From a virus, in the IMG/VR virus record IMGVR_UViG_3300017782_000164, positions 1 through 27,068 of that record: a stretch of DNA of 27,068 bases. One strand, 5' to 3'. The notes under the pieces are model-generated. The model worked only from the letters and a program-made list of their open reading frames with translations, was not told the DNA's origin and searched no databases. Below, one piece after another: positions 7,018-23,087 of the stretch (its first letter is position 1; every line of letters starts with the position of its first letter). The translations under genes were made by a program, and so were the position numbers.

Positions 7018-7478
7018 TTATAACTCCTTTTTACTTTTGAACCAGAAAACTTTACAAACTTAGGATGTTTGTTTAACCCTTTTTCTTTAAGCCAATCCTC
7101 TGGTATTATTCTATCATAACATCTAAAACCATATTTATCACACCATTCTCCATAGCTAGACTTAGCACCCTTTCGTAGCTTACGTCTACTGTTTTCAAAT
7201 ACAAATCTTATATCAAGATGGGGATGTTGCTTCTGTATTGCAAGGTGTTTGCGTCTATCTGCCGCAGTGAACATCCCCTTTGTCTCTATAATGATTCCAT
7301 TATCTAACACGAAGTCTGGTGTATAGGTTCTGTAAGCTAAGTCTTCCCATTCAATCTTCATACACTCATATTGAAACTTTACTTTGTGTAGTTTAAGATA
7401 TTCGGATAGCTTAACTTCTAGTCCAGACCTATACCCATACTTACGTGCCGCTTTGAACTGCTTAAAGTTAACTGACAT
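7014..7478 (-). CDS. T7 endonuclease I-like Holliday-junction resolvase
   Basis: 154 aa. A PD-(D/E)XK nuclease: Glu21 in RSGLEVKLSEYL, then YTPDFVL with Asp55, then IIIETKG with Glu65 and Lys67. Positions agree within one residue with the known catalytic set of T7 endonuclease I (E20, D55, E65, K67), and the length is similar. The T7 enzyme resolves branched DNA before packaging and helps degrade host DNA. The C-terminal part is basic (RRKLRKGAK; KVKRSYK), as expected for DNA binding. It overlaps the exonuclease gene by 11 bp, forming a recombination pair. Confidence 0.9.
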   Translation of the reverse strand: MSVNFKQFKAARKYGYRSGLEVKLSEYLKLHKVKFQYECMKIEWEDLAYRTYTPDFVLDNGIIIETKGMFTAADRRKHLAIQKQHPHLDIRFVFENSRRKLRKGAKSSYGEWCDKYGFRCYDRIIPEDWLKEKGLNKHPKFVKFSGSKVKRSYK

Positions 7479-17775: not shown

Positions 17776-18201
17776 TCAATACTCCCATCTGTAGAAAACG
17801 TGGTCATCTATTCGTACCACATACTGTTTAGTTTCTGCCCATTCTGGCAGGACGTAGGTAGCATGGTAGTGTGTCGCACCTTCAACAAAGTCATCTAGGT
17901 GTCCAAGCAACACACCCCCTGCCACTAGCTTAGACATCTCCCATGCCTCTGCATCACGTGGCTTGTCACTCTTACCATCACAGTACCATGAGAAGTGACA
18001 CCTATTCCTGATAGGTACGTCAGGCTTCCATGAGTACGTCTGTCCTTGTGTAACTACCTCACACACATCATCAGGATATCGGGTATCATACACTCTGTTC
18101 ATTACGACTTGTGCTACTGCCACCTGTCCAATGAACGATTGATTACGTGCCTCGTGATACACGTTCATGGCAAGGCATACAAATGCTGTTTCAAGTAACA
18201 T
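17776..18201 (-). CDS. SleB-type (Hydrolase_2) cell wall hydrolase, probable endolysin
   Basis: 141 aa. The fold signature of SleB/CwlJ hydrolases is clear: NVYHEARNQSFIGQVAVAQV at about residues 13-32, with Glu17 as the likely catalytic acid. MNRVYD follows, then FSWYCDG and GATHYHATYVLPEW. SleB family enzymes cleave peptidoglycan glycan strands. There is no signal peptide, so it needs a holin to reach the wall. It lies on the - strand inside the replication-side block, next to the methyltransferase, while a holin-like gene is on the + strand at the far end of the window. Confidence 0.9.
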   Translation of the reverse strand: MLLETAFVCLAMNVYHEARNQSFIGQVAVAQVVMNRVYDTRYPDDVCEVVTQGQTYSWKPDVPIRNRCHFSWYCDGKSDKPRDAEAWEMSKLVAGGVLLGHLDDFVEGATHYHATYVLPEWAETKQYVVRIDDHVFYRWEY

Positions 18202-18439
18202 TAATCACACTCCTATAATTTGCTACGGCATTTTTAACTATGGGTGGATACTTACCTAGATAAGTACCTGCTTCTAACATCTCCTTTGATAGCAGATGTT
18301 TGTGTGGATGTTCAAGTGTATCCCAATGCTCTAAGATATTCTTAGCACATTGGTCAAACATTGCGTCACTTATTATCGGGTCATCCTCTACATAGTATGC
18401 GTAGGATGCCATCATGTAACGTGATATTGGGTGGTTCAT
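18191..18439 (-). CDS. LigA Ia-domain-like protein (DNA ligase LigA-related)
   Basis: 82 aa. Residues 9-30, including ASYAYYVEDDPIISDAMFDQ, match the N-terminal Ia domain of NAD-dependent DNA ligase (usual form: YYxxDxPxISDAEYD). In LigA that domain binds the nicotinamide part of NAD. Here it is the whole protein: there is no adenylation Lys motif and no OB or BRCT domain. It could bind NAD or the host LigA, but neither is shown. The start has AAAAGGAG 8 nt upstream. It overlaps the lysin start by 11 bp. Confidence 0.75.
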   Translation of the reverse strand: MNHPISRYMMASYAYYVEDDPIISDAMFDQCAKNILEHWDTLEHPHKHLLSKEMLEAGTYLGKYPPIVKNAVANYRSVINVT

Positions 18440-18633
18440 GTATCATACTCCTTTTTGTGTGGTTGCATATGCTCTCCACACTCCATACATTTACATTGTG
18501 GTTTCGGGTAGATGTCATGGCAATCCACGACATCCACATCATATTCTAACATCCATGAGATGCGGTTAGTGCGAACCCATCCTAACTCGAATACATCCGC
18601 ACTCCCACACTCACTACAAGTCCAGTTACTCAT
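18436..18633 (-). CDS. Small zinc-ribbon protein
   Basis: 65 aa. Two cysteine knuckles: CSEC near residues 5-8 and CKCMEC near 48-53, with an acidic middle (EYDVDVVDCHDIY). The pair of CxxC knuckles fits a zinc ribbon that binds nucleic acid or protein. The ATG overlaps the preceding stop as ATGA. Function unknown. Confidence 0.65.
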   Translation of the reverse strand: MSNWTCSECGSADVFELGWVRTNRISWMLEYDVDVVDCHDIYPKPQCKCMECGEHMQPHKKEYDT

Positions 18634-19010
18634 GCAGTTTTCTTAGACTTGCCTCTGCCATTACGTGCTAGGCTACGAAGGTTATCAATCTTGAACGAGC
18701 CAATCTCAATACCTACATTGTCTCTGTTCTTACGTCTAACAGCCTTGCCTAGTTCACGATGCATATTCTCAAGTATGATACCTGCAATAGCTTGTGTAGT
18801 GTACTGTATGTAACCACCTACCTCTGCCTTTGCTTCACGTGTTGCCTCTAATACCATTCTGTATAGCTTGTATCTGCCTAGCTTTACGCCATGATACTCC
18901 GCATATAAACGCTCCACTTTTGCAAGTTTGTTCTCGACTTCGGGTGATGCAAGCACCTGACCTGTCATACCTGTTGAACGCTTGTGAAATGTGATTGTTT
19001 GAATAGTCAT
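18630..19010 (-). CDS. Basic helical protein of unknown function
   Basis: 126 aa. The ATG at 19010 has AAAGGAGA 8 nt upstream; a longer frame to 19073 runs through the palindromic repeat at 19044-19057 and is not preferred. The sequence is helical with a basic C-terminus (AVRRKNRDN, then RNGRGKSKKTA), suggesting nucleic-acid binding. The palindrome lies 34 bp upstream, making this one of the genes likely controlled by it. No family recognised. Confidence 0.65.
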   Translation of the reverse strand: MTIQTITFHKRSTGMTGQVLASPEVENKLAKVERLYAEYHGVKLGRYKLYRMVLEATREAKAEVGGYIQYTTQAIAGIILENMHRELGKAVRRKNRDNVGIEIGSFKIDNLRSLARNGRGKSKKTA

Positions 19011-19043
19011 AATATAGTCTCCTTTCAAGAGATTAGTTGATTT

Positions 19044-19057
19044 GTCCGACATCGGAC
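19044..19057. repeat. Palindromic repeat, copy 1
   Basis: GTCCGACATCGGAC, followed on the + strand by TTTTT and preceded by TTT. It lies between the stop of the 123-aa gene (19061) and the start of the 126-aa gene (19010), 34 bp before the ATG. On the - strand a TATAAA sits just upstream, so the palindrome would overlap a transcript start. Candidate operator. Confidence 0.85.
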
Positions 19058-19060
19058 TTT

Positions 19061-19432
19061 TTATATTGCCCAAACACTAGGGCGGTCATCACTTCCCATT
19101 GTAATCAATGGTGAAGTAAATACTGGTTCACCTTCACGCATGAAGGTATCATTCTCATATGGATTGTATGTGACTTCTCTAGCCCCATCAAAATAACAGG
19201 CTGTCTTATGTTCGCTGAATACAGGATACGTTCCTGTTACAAAAGCATGAACATTCTTTCTGCCTTCACGTCTGGCACGTGCCTGTCCTGCCTTGTGGAT
19301 GGATAGCTTGCAATCCTTTAAACTTATTTCTGTTATGTGATGTATCACTCTGCCTGTCTTAGCATCTTGTACTGAATACATTTTCTTGTGTAAATTCCAA
19401 TATACACGTACTCTCATTCCTTCTTTAAGCAT
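19061..19432 (-). CDS. Hypothetical protein, 123 aa
   Basis: 123 aa from the ATG at 19432, which has GAGGAGA at 6-12 nt; an upstream GTG in frame is within that ribosome site. The N-terminus is beta-rich (MRVRVYWNLHKKMYSVQDA, TGRVIHHITEISLKD), the middle basic (ARARREGRKNVHAFVTG) and the end polar (MGSDDRPSVWAI). This resembles small phage proteins that lack a named domain. It overlaps the next upstream 47-aa gene by 8 bp. Confidence 0.6.
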   Translation of the reverse strand: MLKEGMRVRVYWNLHKKMYSVQDAKTGRVIHHITEISLKDCKLSIHKAGQARARREGRKNVHAFVTGTYPVFSEHKTACYFDGAREVTYNPYENDTFMREGEPVFTSPLITMGSDDRPSVWAI

Positions 19433-19568
19433 AGTATCTCTCCTCACCTATACGTTGTATCTTTTGCTTTGCCTTACGCATTGCCTGACGTTCACGCTTC
19501 CAATCATCACGCTTTGGCTTGCGTACTTTGGGTTTATTCACTTTCATTTTCTCTAATCGTATCTGCAT
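19425..19568 (-). CDS. Very basic 47-aa miniprotein
   Basis: 47 aa (ATG 19566-19568, TAA 19425-19427). Almost a third of residues are Lys or Arg (NKPKVRKPKRDDWKRERQAM, then RKAKQK). It overlaps both neighbours (35 bp with the gene before, 8 bp with the gene after). It is probably a nucleic-acid-associated peptide. Coding status is supported mainly by the compact overlapping layout. Confidence 0.5.
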   Translation of the reverse strand: MQIRLEKMKVNKPKVRKPKRDDWKRERQAMRKAKQKIQRIGEERYYA

Positions 19569-19677
19569 AACCTTTATCCTTCTTTCGATTGTATTTCTTT
19601 TTATCAGGTACTACCTGTTGCCTTCTACGACTTAATGCCATTGCTTTGGCAACAGGATTAACAGGTCTTACTACCAT
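19534..19677 (-). CDS. Basic 47-aa phage miniprotein
   Basis: 47 aa (ATG 19675-19677, TAA 19534-19536), with CGGAG about 9 nt upstream. Sequence features: MVVRPVNPVAKAMALSRRRQ, then KKKYNRKKDK and an acidic tail. The palindromic repeat copy 2 lies 17-30 bp upstream of the ATG, with a TATAAT just before it on the - strand. Small basic proteins with this start are common in marine phages; role unknown. Confidence 0.6.
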   Translation of the reverse strand: MVVRPVNPVAKAMALSRRRQQVVPDKKKYNRKKDKGYADTIRENESE

Positions 19678-19693
19678 TGTCAAATCTCCGTTT

Positions 19694-19707
19694 GTCCGAC
19701 ATCGGAC
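19694..19707. repeat. Palindromic repeat, copy 2
   Basis: GTCCGACATCGGAC, preceded by TTT and followed by TTTTTAT; flanks are identical to copy 1 over 24 bases. On the - strand it is directly preceded by TATAATAAAAA, so its left edge falls at the predicted transcription start for the 47-aa gene at 19677. No good -35 is visible. Confidence 0.85.
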
Positions 19708-19723
19708 TTTTTATTATATATAA

Positions 19724-19743
19724 AGTGAAAATACACTTTCACT
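19724..19743 (-). terminator. Inverted repeat, possible weak terminator or operator
   Basis: AGTGAAA and TTTCACT pair as a 7-bp stem with a 6-nt loop. On the - strand it follows the 229-aa gene (stop at 19783) and is followed by TTATATATAAT. The AT-rich stem makes a terminator weak; it could instead be a binding site upstream of the -10 of copy 2. The 105-bp gap 19678-19782 holds nothing else. Confidence 0.4.
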
Positions 19744-19782
19744 AATGTTTAAGTGTATTTATCACTAAGATATATATAAGGT

Positions 19783-20472
19783 TTAAGCCATTGCAACTGC
19801 ATCAGCTTTCTTCTTGCCATTGCCATGAGCAGGAAATCCAACGATTGCATCACGTATTCTAGCACATAATCCGCAAGTCTCACATGATACATCATCTTTG
19901 ACGACAGCAGGACATACGACAACTTTTCTGCCTTTCGGTGTAGTTGTATTAGTCATCTGAGTTGAAGGCAAGACTGTCGTTACAGGTGCAATACCAGCAT
20001 CAAATAAGTCATCAGCATGAGCAAGATTATTGCCAGACAAGTTGACAACAAAACCATCACTCACCATCTGCTCAACCACGTTGGCATTATGCTTGTCGTT
20101 GATAACGTCATAGTGTGTATATGTCCAACCACGCTTGCCTTTGTTGGCTTCTGATAGCTGAAAGTTAGCCTTGGCATCAAGTCGCTTGCCATCACCTGCC
20201 AAGTCACCTGCCTGATTATGTCTCCACAATGTATCAGCTTTTAAGTTGGCAATCTTACCGACAAACACTTCCCACGAATCACCACGATTTCCGTCAGTAA
20301 CTTTCTTCCAATGCATCGCAAGCGGTCCTGCATTCGCATAGCAACCGCCTTCGTTGGCATGGTTGAATGGGCATACATCAGGACAGGTGCTTGCTGTCGT
20401 TGTGGATACAGGTATCCTACCCACTTTTTTATTGTTTGATTTCAAGACTAGATGTGCATTGTAATTTTGCAT
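19783..20472 (-). CDS. Cysteine-rich phage/plasmid protein (DUF7227-like)
   Basis: 229 aa. Two cysteine groups frame the protein: TCPDVCPFNHANEGGCYA near residues 29-46, and VVCPAVVKDDVSCETCGLC near 185-203. Between them are GPLAMHWKKV, WRHNQAGDLAG and NLSGNNLAHADDL. I recall this architecture as a broadly spread phage and plasmid family labelled DUF7227. The cysteine spacing suggests a metal or Fe-S site and a possible enzyme, but no reaction is known to me. Upstream are palindromic repeat copy 3 (26 bp before the ATG) and a candidate promoter at 20526-20553. Confidence 0.75.
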   Translation of the reverse strand: MQNYNAHLVLKSNNKKVGRIPVSTTTASTCPDVCPFNHANEGGCYANAGPLAMHWKKVTDGNRGDSWEVFVGKIANLKADTLWRHNQAGDLAGDGKRLDAKANFQLSEANKGKRGWTYTHYDVINDKHNANVVEQMVSDGFVVNLSGNNLAHADDLFDAGIAPVTTVLPSTQMTNTTTPKGRKVVVCPAVVKDDVSCETCGLCARIRDAIVGFPAHGNGKKKADAVAMA

Positions 20473-20497
20473 TTTACACTCCGTTGCAACTTGTTTT

Positions 20498-20511
20498 GTT
20501 CGACATCGGAC
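20498..20511. repeat. Palindromic repeat, copy 3 (one mismatch)
   Basis: GTTCGACATCGGAC, one base different from the consensus, with the usual TTTT after it. It is 26 bp before the ATG of the 229-aa gene and just downstream of a TTGACA-16-TATGCT promoter, so it would lie in the first 25 nt of the transcript or under initiating polymerase. Confidence 0.8.
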
Positions 20512-20525
20512 TTTTCGATTTATTC

Positions 20526-20553
20526 AGCATACACTAAATCAAACCCTTGTCAA
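20526..20553 (-). promoter_or_regulatory. Candidate promoter for the 229-aa gene
   Basis: On the - strand TTGACA (20548-20553), a 16-nt spacer, then TATGCT (20526-20531). The palindromic repeat copy 3 follows at about +5 to +20. This arrangement of promoter then palindrome is the best case for the repeat acting as an operator. Confidence 0.5.
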
Positions 20554-20779
20554 TCATCTTTTGTTTTAACAAAAGTACACGCTTGTGACGCTCTCGTGCT
20601 TCCACATGAGCATCATATACCGCTTGCATCTGGGTTTTCTGTCCAGATACAAAGCATTCAAACTGAGGACGGCTCTCAGGCTCATAAGAGTGAGAGTACG
20701 CTCCAGTGTCCATGCTACGCCATGACGAACCAAGGGGCTTGTGTGTCCCCATATCTATAACTGCACCACGTTTTGCCAT
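20534..20779 (-). CDS. Hypothetical protein, 81 aa
   Basis: 81 aa with CGGAG 8 nt before the ATG. Begins MAKRGAVIDMGTHKPLGSSW, aromatic and polar in the middle (YSHSYEPESRPQFECF) and ends in a basic helix with EARERHKRVLLLKQK. No domain recognised. It is followed by the promoter and repeat for the 229-aa gene. The ribosome site overlaps the end of the membrane protein gene upstream. Confidence 0.6.
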   Translation of the reverse strand: MAKRGAVIDMGTHKPLGSSWRSMDTGAYSHSYEPESRPQFECFVSGQKTQMQAVYDAHVEARERHKRVLLLKQKMIDKGLI

Positions 20780-20782
20780 AAT

Positions 20783-20947
20783 TTATCTCCGATAAAATGT
20801 AAGTAAGAAGCCCATAATTGATAGGCTAAACATAGCCATAGCCAAGTATGAAACCCAATTCAAATCACTAAAAGTGATTGTCCAGATGTAGCCTATGGCA
20901 TACCAGAAGGTAGCCATAAGCAATGTGATGAAACGCTCAATAGTCAT
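20783..20947 (-). CDS. Two-span small membrane protein
   Basis: 54 aa (ATG 20945-20947, TAA 20783-20785). Two hydrophobic segments, about residues 6-25 (FITLLMATFWYAIGYIWTIT) and 32-51 (VSYLAMAMFSLSIMGFLLTF), joined by a short polar turn (FSDLNW), with YRR at the end. The shape fits a holin-like or superinfection-type membrane protein. It lies in the early-side cluster, so a role in host takeover or exclusion is possible. The ribosome site is weak (GGGG). Confidence 0.6.
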   Translation of the reverse strand: MTIERFITLLMATFWYAIGYIWTITFSDLNWVSYLAMAMFSLSIMGFLLTFYRR

Positions 20948-20979
20948 TTTAAACCCCATTTTAACTGTTAGACAGTAGC

Positions 20980-21546
20980 TTATGCTACTGCCTGTTTGTT
21001 TGTGTCCTCATCCTGTAGGATGTTTGAGATTGCTTCAAATGACTTGTTAAAGTCATCGAGAGAGATATTGTTGGCTTCGAGCATTTCAAGCACTGCAACC
21101 GCTACGTCATCAGCTTGCATAGGCTTGCTTGCAGTAGGCTTTTCAGTTTGTCCGACATCGGACTTTTCACCTACGGTGTTTTTAGCCTTCGACTCAACGG
21201 GTGCTTTGTTATCTGCCTTGTATGCTTTCAGCATAGCAGATGTTGAAGTAAAACGAGGCAAATAATCTGTAAGATTATCCCACAATTCGGCAAGTTGTTT
21301 GGCATCGGTACGTCTCTGTTTAGGTACATTCTGGATGCCACAATCCTGTAAACGGTTTTTCTTGATGTTGCCCCCAGCTTCAACTGAAAGCTCAATCAGC
21401 AATTTACCTAATGGTAAGTCAAATTCAGTAATCTGTTTCTTTTCAGCTTTCACGATACGCTTCCAAGCATTGCCCAATGCCTTGCCTTGTGATTCGAGAG
21501 TGTTGATTTCAGCAGAAGTAACTTCGTTAATGTTTGATTTAGTCAT
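20980..21546 (-). CDS. First gene of the leftward block, unknown function
   Basis: 188 aa; ATG 21546 with CGGAG 9 nt upstream and a promoter at 21601-21630. The N-terminal 105 residues are mostly helical (GKALGNAWKRIVKAEKK; IQNVPKQRRTDAKQLAELWDNL). A low-complexity linker (residues about 112-143, Lys, Ala, Glu, Thr, Pro) leads to an acidic helical C-terminus (AVAVLEMLEANNISLDDFN). The linker contains palindromic repeat copy 4 read as Lys128-Gln133. As the first-transcribed gene it is likely an early host-takeover or regulatory protein. I do not recognise a family. Confidence 0.7.
   Translation of the reverse strand: MTKSNINEVTSAEINTLESQGKALGNAWKRIVKAEKKQITEFDLPLGKLLIELSVEAGGNIKKNRLQDCGIQNVPKQRRTDAKQLAELWDNLTDYLPRFTSTSAMLKAYKADNKAPVESKAKNTVGEKSDVGQTEKPTASKPMQADDVAVAVLEMLEANNISLDDFNKSFEAISNILQDEDTNKQAVA
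21150..21163. repeat. Palindromic repeat, copy 4 (inside a gene)
   Basis: GTCCGACATCGGAC with TTTG before and TTTT after, inside the 188-aa gene. On the - strand it spans Lys128 to Gln133 in the linker between two helical parts. Its exact match within coding sequence shows the DNA or RNA element itself is under constraint. Confidence 0.85.
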
Positions 21547-21600
21547 GGTAAATACTCCGTATTTAAAGTTGAAATTGAATCGATTTGAAACCGATGCCCC

Positions 21601-21630
21601 ATCTTAAACCGAAAACGAATTTAGGGTCAA
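21601..21630 (-). promoter_or_regulatory. Leftward promoter for the replication block
   Basis: On the - strand TTGACC (21625-21630), 18-nt spacer, then TAAGAT (21601-21606). Predicted start near 21594, 48 nt before the 188-aa gene. A close sigma70-type match and the only good one in this orientation between the 188-aa gene and the rightward genes. Confidence 0.65.
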
Positions 21631-21785
21631 CAAAAAAATTGGCTGAAACTGTGCGTGATTTCTCCTACGCATAATGCACGGGGAAACAGGCGAGTTTCTG
21701 TGGGTGATGCAATGCGACATGACGGGTGACGGGTAGGTCATGTGTAAGGCATTGTGTGAGGTGTGAGAGCGAGGCATTTTGAGAT

Positions 21786-21799
21786 GTCCGACATCGGAC
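21786..21799. repeat. Palindromic repeat, copy 5
   Basis: GTCCGACATCGGAC followed by TTTTT, preceded by GAT. It is in the control region about 240 bp upstream of the 188-aa gene and 155 bp upstream of its promoter. This copy is not next to an obvious start codon. Confidence 0.85.
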
Positions 21800-21932
21800 T
21801 TTTTCAAGCATGGTCTAAGTAAAGTTTTACACTTTTCAATATTTACAGCTTTACAACGCCTGAAACAATGGCAACTGATACCATAACAGTTATCACATTT
21901 CCGAAAACTGGCAGAAATGCTAGGGTTTTACT

Positions 21933-22030
21933 CGCATAATACCTGCATATCACGCATAATGTAGGCATTACAGGCGCATAAACGCATGACATAGGCGCAT
22001 GACGAGCATGACATGGGGGTACGGGCATGA
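21933..22030. repeat. Iteron-like GCATRA repeat cluster
   Basis: Short direct repeats built on (C)GCAT(A/G)A: CGCATAAT at 21933 and 21953, CGCATAA at 21975, CGCATGAC at 21983 and 21996, GCATGAC at 22006, GCATGA at 22025. An isolated CGCATAAT also occurs at 21668. Spacing is 8-22 bp. The cluster is beside an AT-rich region and a divergent promoter pair. It looks like a protein-binding array, an origin iteron set or an operator. Confidence 0.6.
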
Positions 22031-22046
22031 GCCACCCCGGGGTACG
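22016..22046. repeat. GGGGTACG direct repeat with CCCCGGGG palindrome
   Basis: GGGGTACG occurs at 22016-22023 and 22039-22046, 23 bp apart, and the second copy is part of the palindrome ACCCCGGGGT (22034-22043). It is a sharp GC spike at the boundary between the repeat cluster and the AT-rich stretch. Confidence 0.55.
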
Positions 22047-22057
22047 CTAGATATATA

Positions 22058-22076
22058 TACACAGAAATACACAGAT
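22058..22076. repeat. Tandem ATACACAGA pair
   Basis: ATACACAGA occurs at 22058-22066 and again at 22068-22076, a 10-bp period that puts both copies on the same helix face. It is in the AT-rich half of the control region. Confidence 0.5.
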
Positions 22077-22130
22077 TAGGTAAATCAAGTGTTAACCACA
22101 GTAGCAACTGATGTGTATGAGCATACCTAG

Positions 22131-22184
22131 TATAGAATATTTTTCTACTAACCACACTAATATAGGAATATATTTCTCTTACTA
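22131..22184. repeat. Imperfect direct repeat upstream of the rightward promoter
   Basis: TATAGAATATTTTTCTACTA (22131-22150) recurs in altered form as TATAGGAATATATTTCTCTT followed by ACTA (22161-22184), 30 bp downstream. The second copy ends 11 bp before the -35 of the rightward promoter, where an activator might bind. Confidence 0.4.
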
Positions 22185-22195
22185 CATTTTATGTA

Positions 22196-22224
22196 TTGAC
22201 ACTTCTTGACAAAGCTGGTATAAT
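22196..22224 (+). promoter_or_regulatory. Consensus sigma70 promoter for the rightward genes
   Basis: TTGACA (22196-22201), exactly 17 nt, then TATAAT (22219-22224), preceded by TG one base away (extended -10). All twelve core positions match consensus. Predicted start near 22231 leaves a leader of about 165 nt before the GTG at 22398. A second TTGACA at 22206 has the wrong spacing. It needs no phage factor and is likely recognised early by host polymerase. Confidence 0.88.
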
Positions 22225-22397
22225 TATACATATAAAGTGTTTCAGTTAACTGTTTATATATTTAAATTATATATTCACTTAAATGCTCATTAACTATATT
22301 ATATTTTCTTTGCTAATATCACTTTAACTAAACATTTATAGTGATACTATTTGTAATGAATAAATTTGTGTTATAATAAATTTAAAGGTTGACATTT

Positions 22398-22601
22398 GTG
22401 CGAAAATCAGTAAAACTATACACAGATAATGTACTTCCAGCTTTCTATGAAGCTATTCGTACCAACTCACTTGACCGTCTTCACATACCACATAGCGATG
22501 TGTTCTATGTGCGTAATGCATTGGAGACTAAGTTTTCCCCACGTAAGTTTACTTTAAAAGAAACAGAAGACTATATGCGTTTGGAAGGCTGGGAAGATTA
22601 A
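22398..22601 (+). CDS. First rightward gene, small phage protein
   Basis: 67 aa. The GTG at 22398 is chosen because AAAGG ends 9 nt upstream; a TTG at 22389 in the same frame is too close to that site. The sequence (RKSVKLYTDNVLPAFYEAI, later FSPRKFTLKETEDYM) is a small alpha/beta protein with many Tyr and Phe. No known domain. It is the first gene downstream of the rightward promoter. Confidence 0.7.
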   Translation: MRKSVKLYTDNVLPAFYEAIRTNSLDRLHIPHSDVFYVRNALETKFSPRKFTLKETEDYMRLEGWED

Positions 22602-22602
22602 T

Positions 22603-22794
22603 ATGTTTACAACATTCGTGATGGCATGTTCAATGATGACAGGTCAATGTATAATAGTTGAAGATTCGTATGGACCGTACTCAAAAGAAGTACACTGCGT
22701 AGAACGTGCTGCAGTAATAGTTACAGATGTAGCAGAAGCATTGGGAACACCACACTCGTTTTCATTTAAATGCAAGTTTGATAGAGGCATATAA
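22603..22794 (+). CDS. Small cysteine-containing protein
   Basis: 63 aa, four cysteines (CS, QC, HC, KC). The N-terminus is mildly hydrophobic (MFTTFVMACSMMTG), possibly a signal or membrane anchor; the rest is polar with EDSYGPYSKEVHC. It starts 2 bp after the preceding stop and its end overlaps the next start by one base. Function unknown. Confidence 0.6.
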   Translation: MFTTFVMACSMMTGQCIIVEDSYGPYSKEVHCVERAAVIVTDVAEALGTPHSFSFKCKFDRGI

Positions 22795-23087
22795 TGGCTA
22801 TACCAGAGCGTGTCAAAACAAAAATGAAGGAAGAGGGGCTGTCTGGCGTTAATAAGCCGAAGCGTACTCCTAAACACCCAACTAAGTCTCACTGTGTGAT
22901 GGCTAAAGAAGGTGATACATATAAATTTATTCGTTTTGGACAACAAGGCGTATCAGGTGCTGGTAAAAATCCTACCACAGCGAAGGACAAGGCACGTAAG
23001 AAGTCGTATTATGCTAGACATAATGCACAAGGTAAACCGACCAGCAAGCTAAGTGCTAAGTACTGGTCACATAAAGTGAAATGGTAG
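22794..23087 (+). CDS. Conserved marine-phage basic protein (DUF6321-like)
   Basis: 97 aa. MAIPERVKTKMKEEGLSGVN, then KRTPKHPTKSHCVMAKEG, IRFGQQGVSGAG and SAKYWSHKVKW at the C-terminus. I recall this pattern as a family labelled DUF6321, common in marine phages. It is very basic and may coat or package DNA, which is inference. It starts with a TAATGG overlap after the preceding gene. Confidence 0.7.
   Translation: MAIPERVKTKMKEEGLSGVNKPKRTPKHPTKSHCVMAKEGDTYKFIRFGQQGVSGAGKNPTTAKDKARKKSYYARHNAQGKPTSKLSAKYWSHKVKW

Follow-up and report, generated by a model that had tools for sequence, protein, structure and literature searches.

A dispersed palindrome array in the early operon of HMO-2011-type marine phages and its putative cognate 188-amino-acid regulator

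Introduction

The operators of CI and Cro in phage lambda are short palindromes whose half-sites vary independently and whose specificity differs between related phages, and the lambda N/nut (boxB) system pairs a protein encoded first in the early operon with a small hairpin site in the same transcripts, the pairs being phage-specific. The stoperators of Cluster A mycobacteriophages (L5, Bxb1) are numerous short sites of identical sequence, of which some are located at promoters and the majority in short intergenic gaps among transcribed early genes; their sequences are genome-specific and matched by a cognate phage protein of about 180 amino acids (aa), and they mostly face one way with respect to transcription (PMC6550527, PMC9283540). 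The Start Associated Sequences and Extended Start Associated Sequences (SAS/ESAS) of Cluster K are inverted repeats upstream of the translation starts of some non-structural genes, with a consensus that differs by subcluster, and the paper describing SAS leaves open what, if anything, binds it (PMC3203893). Here, we analyze five copies of a 14-bp palindrome in the leftward early operon of a viral DNA of 27,068 nucleotides (IMG/VR record IMGVR_UViG_3300017782_000164, positions 1 to 27,068; this whole stretch is termed the window) and compare them with the corresponding sites of related phages.

By its sequence, the window is a fragment of an HMO-2011-type marine podovirus (see below). Phages of this type are reported to dominate in the ocean and to be widespread there (PMC9038755), and the main comparative paper on them mentions neither promoters nor repressors nor palindromes. 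Comparison across genomes shows that the palindrome is conserved, confined to the early operon, found together with the gene for a 188-aa protein and covarying with residues of that protein. We consider it probable that this protein, encoded by the first gene of the leftward early operon, is a sequence-specific regulator of the phage and that the five palindromes serve as its operators.

Results

Five palindromes in the first part of the leftward operon

The palindrome occupies five sites with intervals of 650, 804, 652 and 636 bp on the + strand (Table 1), and the positions given in the initial annotation, including the one mismatch in copy 3, proved correct. A scan allowing up to three mismatches returned 10 matches (the five sites on both strands) against a shuffle mean of 0.62, with none of 100 shuffles reaching 10; as initially reported, there is no sixth copy, and this holds for the entire 27,068-base contig, which is the complete record. 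The outer arms are exact inverted repeats (5-bp arms), whereas the central CA cannot pair with itself, which leaves a motif that is palindromic at 12/14 positions. Alignment agrees with the flanks first noticed, namely TTTG before copies 1–4 and TTTT after all five copies on the + strand; on the minus (coding) strand, the element at copies 1–4 reads AAAA-GTCCGATGTCGGAC-AAA. All five copies fall within the initial 3 kb of the operon that runs leftward, which adjoins the control region and the divergent rightward operon. Copies 1–3 lie 16–34 bp before the minus-strand start codons at 19010, 19677 and 20472, copy 4 lies within the 188-aa open reading frame (ORF) and copy 5 in the leader.

Conservation and placement in related phages

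A first scan of viral contigs with the bare 14-mer recovered many contigs with 3–6 copies at a spacing similar to that of the window. Since loci should not be chosen by the motif itself, 80 loci were retrieved via the conserved 70-aa gene across the control region; the combined set comprises 80 non-redundant loci with 357 sites (288 distinct). In the anchor-selected loci, the 257 kb of left arm contain 90 occurrences of GTCC-N6-GGAC, and the 536 kb of right arm contain 3. Conservation in related phages, whose absence the initial annotation had listed among the refuting observations, is thus found: relatives usually carry 3–7 copies of GTCC[R]NNNN[Y]GGAC per locus, with a median spacing of 679 bp, and these are almost entirely restricted to the initial ~5 kb of the leftward early operon. 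Its eight outer positions are near-invariant, with 334 exact copies against 3 bearing one mismatch, and window copy 3 is one of these three; the earlier argument that its mismatch becomes a G-U wobble in antisense RNA alone finds no comparative support. In 63 of the 80 non-redundant loci, the 188-aa gene contains a copy at the corresponding position, and most relatives also display a leader copy upstream of the first gene.

Among isolates, the circular HMO-2011 genome carries GTCCGACAGCGGAC / GTCCGCTGTCGGAC five times (at 53879, 54808, 61, 1262 and 1927, across the origin) and nowhere else, and CRP-345 and CRP-1 have GTCCAACGTTGGAC-type copies, chiefly in the early operon. Neither sites nor the 188-aa gene were found in the more distant isolates CRP-2, CRP-603, CRP-207, CRP-3, CRP-235 and HTVC033P; HMO-2011 and CRP-345 were scanned completely and the remaining isolates over their first 50 kb, which is all but a few kb. 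Sites with A-T at base pair 5 (A-type) also lie beyond the early array in CRP-345 (L008; 7079 and 14469) and CRP-1 (L129; 6868), those at 7079 and 6868 being inside the integrase genes (GTCCAAGGTTGGAC).

More than half of the distinct sites (156/288) stand directly before a Shine–Dalgarno sequence and ATG, with the distance from palindrome start to ATG peaking sharply at 33–36 nt, and many sites lie within genes or after stop codons, where no promoter is present. The initial suggestion that promoter sites place the palindrome near +1 stands for window copies 2 and 3 (10/12 matches each), and a GTGAAA/TATACT module similar to that of copy 2 precedes the site in many relatives; it does not stand as a general rule, with a strong −35/−10 just upstream of only 13% of start-proximal sites versus 2% of controls, and in the window overall promoter matches are no more numerous than in shuffles. 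Positive regulation, in which activator or middle-promoter elements let the 188-aa protein turn on the early cistrons, would suit the sites that precede many early-gene starts and the subset with a −10-like sequence directly upstream. However, wherever a promoter is recognizable the palindrome coincides with or follows +1, a position from which bound proteins usually act as repressors, and the many promoter-free sites in genes or after stop codons also argue against activation, which we consider improbable.

The same indifference to gene context, including coding sequence, of near-invariant palindromes hundreds of bp apart resembles parS or nucleoid-occlusion sites and raises the prospect of structural DNA sites for partition, replication or packaging that are read by the 188-aa protein. 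Their limitation to one early operon and frequent placement just upstream of the Shine–Dalgarno sequence do not favor this, no ParA or ParB was recognized among the scanned proteins, and the spacings lack helical phasing (R=0.05), making such a role very improbable. The T runs had further suggested hairpins that act as antisense terminators, and window copies 1, 2, 3 and 5 (those outside the regulator gene) do match the + strand terminator consensus. Across the 80 loci, however, T4 follows the palindrome on the antisense strand at 5 of 357 sites, four of them in the window, and on the sense strand at 0 of 357; because the T run is nearly unique to the window genome, we reject the terminator idea. 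Other classes have stems rich in AT, and termination would leave the residue–operator covariation described below unexplained, so that antisense intrinsic termination as a general function is extremely improbable.

The sites are also oriented: outside the in-gene copy, the center reads ATGT at 156 and ACAT at 47 sites relative to transcription, these two centers being the measure of orientation, and 25 loci are uniform against 5.8 expected. C-to-T mutation of the coding strand was considered as the source of this bias but does not account for the sister classes described below in which C, G or A is favored at the center. Alongside the ATGT, ACGT and ACAT centers (319 sites), ATAT never appears, which would fit a requirement for GTCCRAC in one or both half-sites.

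Covariation of the 188-aa protein with its candidate operator

The 188-aa ORF is the gene most widely common to the multi-copy contigs (29 of 31 loci), and in the anchor-selected set GTCC-type sites are present with the 188-aa gene and absent without it. The apparent exception, L141, which has the gene without GTCC sites, carries CCCCAAC..GTTGGGG instead; with these changed outer operator bases, the start of helix 76-87 is changed as well (DSQRR for DKRRR). The structure model of the protein (mean predicted local distance difference test score, pLDDT, 78) has a predicted all-helical N-terminal domain, a low-confidence linker at ~118-138 and C-terminal helices.

Base pair 5 of the palindrome is either G-C (G-type) or A-T (A-type), and this difference is tracked by residue 103 of the protein. 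In a first set of 39 proteins, residue 103 is T in 11/11 A-type and S/K in 26/28 G-type genomes. A second, protein-selected set of 39 new typed genomes (unbalanced, with 34 A-type and 5 G-type), which was unused in forming the residue-103 rule, fits it in 36/39 cases, the three exceptions forming one clade whose operators are partly hybrid. Over all 77 genomes, residue 103 predicts base pair 5 in 72, with T103 in 42/45 A-type and S/K103 in 30/32 G-type genomes. On a tree built without column 103, operator type changes 16 times, and in all nine well-supported independent pairs the residue change is concordant (sign test p=0.004). The most informative columns across the 77 genomes are 103, 107 and 110, which share a single face of the predicted helix 102-113; column 130, which is also highly informative, is the codon of the operator itself. 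The clade of the three exceptions, which has S103, bears hybrid sites, GTCCGACGTTGGAC, which are consistent with a specificity switch in progress.

Direct recognition of the site by the 188-aa protein is the simplest explanation known to us for this covariation, and a tightly linked second factor may alternatively be its source. With residues that covary with the operator, the 188-aa product becomes the likely regulator, and the initial proposal of an operator for a phage regulator is strongly supported.

Several observations weigh against this assignment. In the second set alone, columns 110 and 73 are level with or above 103, and L143/L192 (T103 with G-type sites) and L261/L263/L270 (S103 with A-type sites) violate the residue-103 rule. 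Base pairs 5 and 10 change jointly within genomes, with few hybrids, and the orientation bias exceeds what a symmetric DNA site should show. Most sites have no adjoining promoter. Searches of Pfam and PHROGs assigned the protein to no family, and a Foldseek search of its model against the PDB gave nothing with an E-value below 1 and no confident fold, so that DNA binding lacks support from homology. No relative of the protein turned up among the bacteria searched (84,980 species genomes); from that side, therefore, there is no sign of lysogeny.

A VIA-align search with the model gave no Z above 3.6, and two LEAFY DNA-binding domains (Z 3.2 and 2.8) are at noise level. The best viral structural match is a 205-aa protein, which is probably HMO-2011 gp74. 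A protein of Arthrobacter phage SilentRX (BFVD A0A8F3ECR4) also matches the model structurally (Foldseek probability 0.72), hinting that the family may reach actinophages. Distant homologs in viral contigs were sought with a subclade alignment of the 188-aa protein. In the search for prophage forms, the 70-aa anchor showed five distant relatives, in metagenome-assembled bins. By Pfam and PHROGs library searches, the 188-aa protein appears to represent an undescribed family; the arrays themselves would be dispersed phage operators, a known principle.

Sister modules and the RNA alternative

Several loci that lack the 188-aa gene display a different palindrome at similar spacing (Table 1), and each such sister class has its own first-gene protein of ~200-276 aa in the same genomic place. 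The first-gene proteins of L160, L187, L154 and L178 are mutually related by BLAST, and the others are without detectable relation; profile comparisons of c187 with L154 and L178 are circular and play no part here. L181 combines a divergent relative of the 188-aa protein with the palindrome GTTCGACAGTCGAAC, and other loci have neither a detectable array nor such a first gene. Half-sites vary independently in L154 and L187, a pattern typical of dimer-bound DNA.

These classes bear on whether the sites act as RNA, for the sense transcript can fold GUCCG-AUGU-CGGAC, with a 5-bp stem and a 4-nt loop (−7.7 kcal/mol with flanks). The 188-aa protein might then bind a sense hairpin that serves in antitermination (nut/boxB-like), in transcript stability or in translation. 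Such an element would suit a protein encoded first in the operon, like N in lambda, the sense orientation bias, the placement of so many sites just before the Shine–Dalgarno sequence, the covariation of pairs 5/10 from G-C to A-U within genomes and the preponderance of G-U over A-C hybrids (16 versus 3, in raw counts that represent far fewer independent events). Most copies do pair in the sense transcript, but window copy 3 breaks the stem (−0.8 kcal/mol), all three known arm mismatches are non-wobble in sense, four of eight L154 sites would set T against T or A against A in the stem, one altered half-site unpairs it at several L187/L160 sites, and the predicted folding of the TTCCCTAGGGAA class does not exceed that of shuffles. 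In addition, boxA (CGCTCTTA, one mismatch) gave 9 matches versus 14.7 by chance, none of them just upstream of a site, and there is no Rfam match in 18000-23000. We regard an RNA element as unlikely and clearly favor DNA over RNA as the form in which the sites are read.

Genomic context

The DNA polymerase of the window is 78% identical over its full length to that of Puniceispirillum phage HMO-2011. Its integrase, primase, helicase, endonuclease and ribonucleotide reductase genes are ordered as in HMO-2011, with synteny at the DNA level too; a DNA polymerase with a DnaJ-type zinc domain, together with replication genes and ribonucleotide reductase in conserved order, is what defines the HMO-2011 type. 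The rightward operon of the window is operator-free and has a perfect consensus promoter (Table 1); a TTGACA-16/18-TATAAT match is found in 52 of 62 loci.

The operator-bearing region further encodes (19061-19447, −) a homolog of mycobacteriophage L5 gp82 (PF25735, E 3e-32), which thus sits in a phage related to alphaproteobacterial phages. An 82-aa protein (18191-18439, −) matches the NAD-dependent DNA ligase only in its N-terminal NAD-binding part (PF22745, E 2e-8). At 21868-21892, ~520-560 bp left of the 70-aa gene, lies a conserved element with the sense sequence AACTGTTATGGTATCAGTTGCC (an AACTG..CAGTT inverted repeat); a pattern search recovers it in 36 of the 62 loci whose left flank is long enough, and it may be an origin, an att site or an early promoter element. 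A control-region block at 22050-22105, TACACAGAAATACACAGATTAGGTAAATCAAGTGTTAACCACAG, whose pattern is present in 40 of 62 loci, probably accounts for a shared, spurious-looking minus-strand ORF (21928-22155) and is possibly a replication origin.

Table 1. Proposed operator copies, promoter-like sites and genes of the window, with the palindromes of sister loci
Feature	Position or locus	Strand	Remarks
First gene of rightward operon	22389..22601	+	conserved, 70 aa; motif-independent anchor for relatives
Promoter of divergent rightward operon	22196..22224	+	perfect sigma-70 consensus TTGACA-17-TATAAT
Operator copy 5	21786..21799	-	sense GTCCGATGTCGGAC; leader, ~240 bp upstream of first early gene
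Weak promoter-like site between copy 5 and regulator gene	21601..21630	-	TTGACC-18-TAAGAT, 9/12; alone, no better than chance
Proposed operator-binding regulator	20980..21546	-	188 aa; first gene of leftward early operon
Operator copy 4	21150..21163	-	within 188-aa regulator gene; encodes linker peptide S-D-V-G-Q
Promoter-like site upstream of copy 3	20526..20553	-	TTGACA-16-TATGCT, 10/12
Operator copy 3	20498..20511	-	+ strand GTTCGACATCGGAC, sense GTCCGATGTCGAAC; one mismatch; just downstream of TTGACA-16-TATGCT
Early gene after copy 3	19783..20472	-	DUF7227, Pfam PF23872, E 5e-84
Promoter-like site upstream of copy 2	19713..19742	-	GTGAAA-18-TATAAT, 10/12
Operator copy 2	19694..19707	-	just downstream of GTGAAA-18-TATAAT; 16 bp before start codon
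Small early gene after copy 2	19534..19677	-	weak DUF7230 match
Operator copy 1	19044..19057	-	33 bp before start codon at 19010
Early gene after copy 1	18630..19010	-	no family assigned
Sister palindrome	L154		GTGTTAAATAACAC
Sister palindrome	L156, L150		TGTAACGSCGTTACA
Sister palindrome	L160, L187		GTAATCRSTGATTAC
Sister palindrome	L178		TGTCACTSAGTGACA
Sister palindrome	L145, L147		TTCCCTAGGGAA

Discussion

From the comparisons above, we infer that the 188-aa protein binds DNA rather than RNA, dimerizes, represses rather than activates and blocks elongation. Most likely, it would bind the 14-bp site as a dimer, with one GTCCRAY half-site per subunit, such that helix 102-113 (residues 103, 107 and 110) would contact the inner base pairs, and the outer ones would be read by helix 76-87 through its Arg-rich start. 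Made early, the regulator would occupy the array across its own operon. Because the sites lie at some internal promoters, before ribosome-binding sites and in coding sequence, both promoter repression and obstruction of elongation are proposed: internal promoters would be repressed where the site is at or just after +1 (window copies 2 and 3), and elsewhere the bound protein would obstruct the elongating polymerase over the first ~3-5 kb. The likely outcome would be a self-limiting brake or shut-off on the early genes, including the regulator's own site-bearing gene. The protein could instead be an immunity repressor if integrase-bearing phages of this group form lysogens; subgroup I and III HMO-2011-type phages have integrases, and integration was shown for CRP-3 of subgroup III (PMC9038755). 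We entertain only tentatively the view that one of the dominant marine phage groups has early-gene control of an undescribed type, combining a protein family of unrecognized fold with a recognition helix deducible by comparing genomes, an array of oriented near-invariant palindromes through which the protein affects transcription elongation or the RNA itself, and a module swapped as a whole for non-homologous ones in sister phages.

The analysis turns an anonymous hypothetical gene into a testable switch with a candidate regulator, its operators and three candidate specificity residues. It also provides a natural series of co-evolving protein–operator pairs, including a lineage that is apparently in mid-switch, and so has relevance to the ways in which phages alter their immunity or regulatory specificity.

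The start-proximal layout of inverted repeats is shared with the SAS/ESAS elements of Cluster K, but in the present phages the sites also lie within genes and a cognate protein can be proposed. The 13-bp SAS consensus GGGATAGGAGCCC gave 0 matches at two or fewer mismatches and was rejected as a candidate. With the lambda operators, the arrays share palindromic, phage-specific sites with independently varying half-sites; unlike those operators, which are clustered at two promoters, they are spread over an operon and have arms that hardly vary, and the 188-aa protein, unlike CI and Cro, has no match to a lambda-type helix-turn-helix family. A protein encoded first and small hairpin-capable sites in the same operon recall lambda N/nut. 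The differences are that several sites per operon are present, including in coding sequence, that no boxA is nearby, that the protein is a folded one of 188 aa rather than a short Arg-rich peptide and that sister classes include non-pairing site variants.

In its working principle, the array appears closest to the Cluster A stoperators, and the regulator is probably a repressor or elongation brake comparable to that of the L5 stoperators. The Cluster A sites are asymmetric, 13 bp long and bound by monomers of an L5-type immunity repressor, which represses initiation and blocks elongation, whereas those described here are 14-bp inverted repeats, fewer in number (3–7) and restricted to the first ~5 kb of one operon, and the protein is encoded by the first early gene and belongs to no described family in the libraries searched. 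In common with the stoperators, there are multiple near-identical sites (five in the window, 3–7 in relatives), 156 of 288 of them start-proximal, the window-type sites lie mostly in one orientation (156:47 by their center), and the sites are genome-specific, with a proposed cognate protein of similar size.

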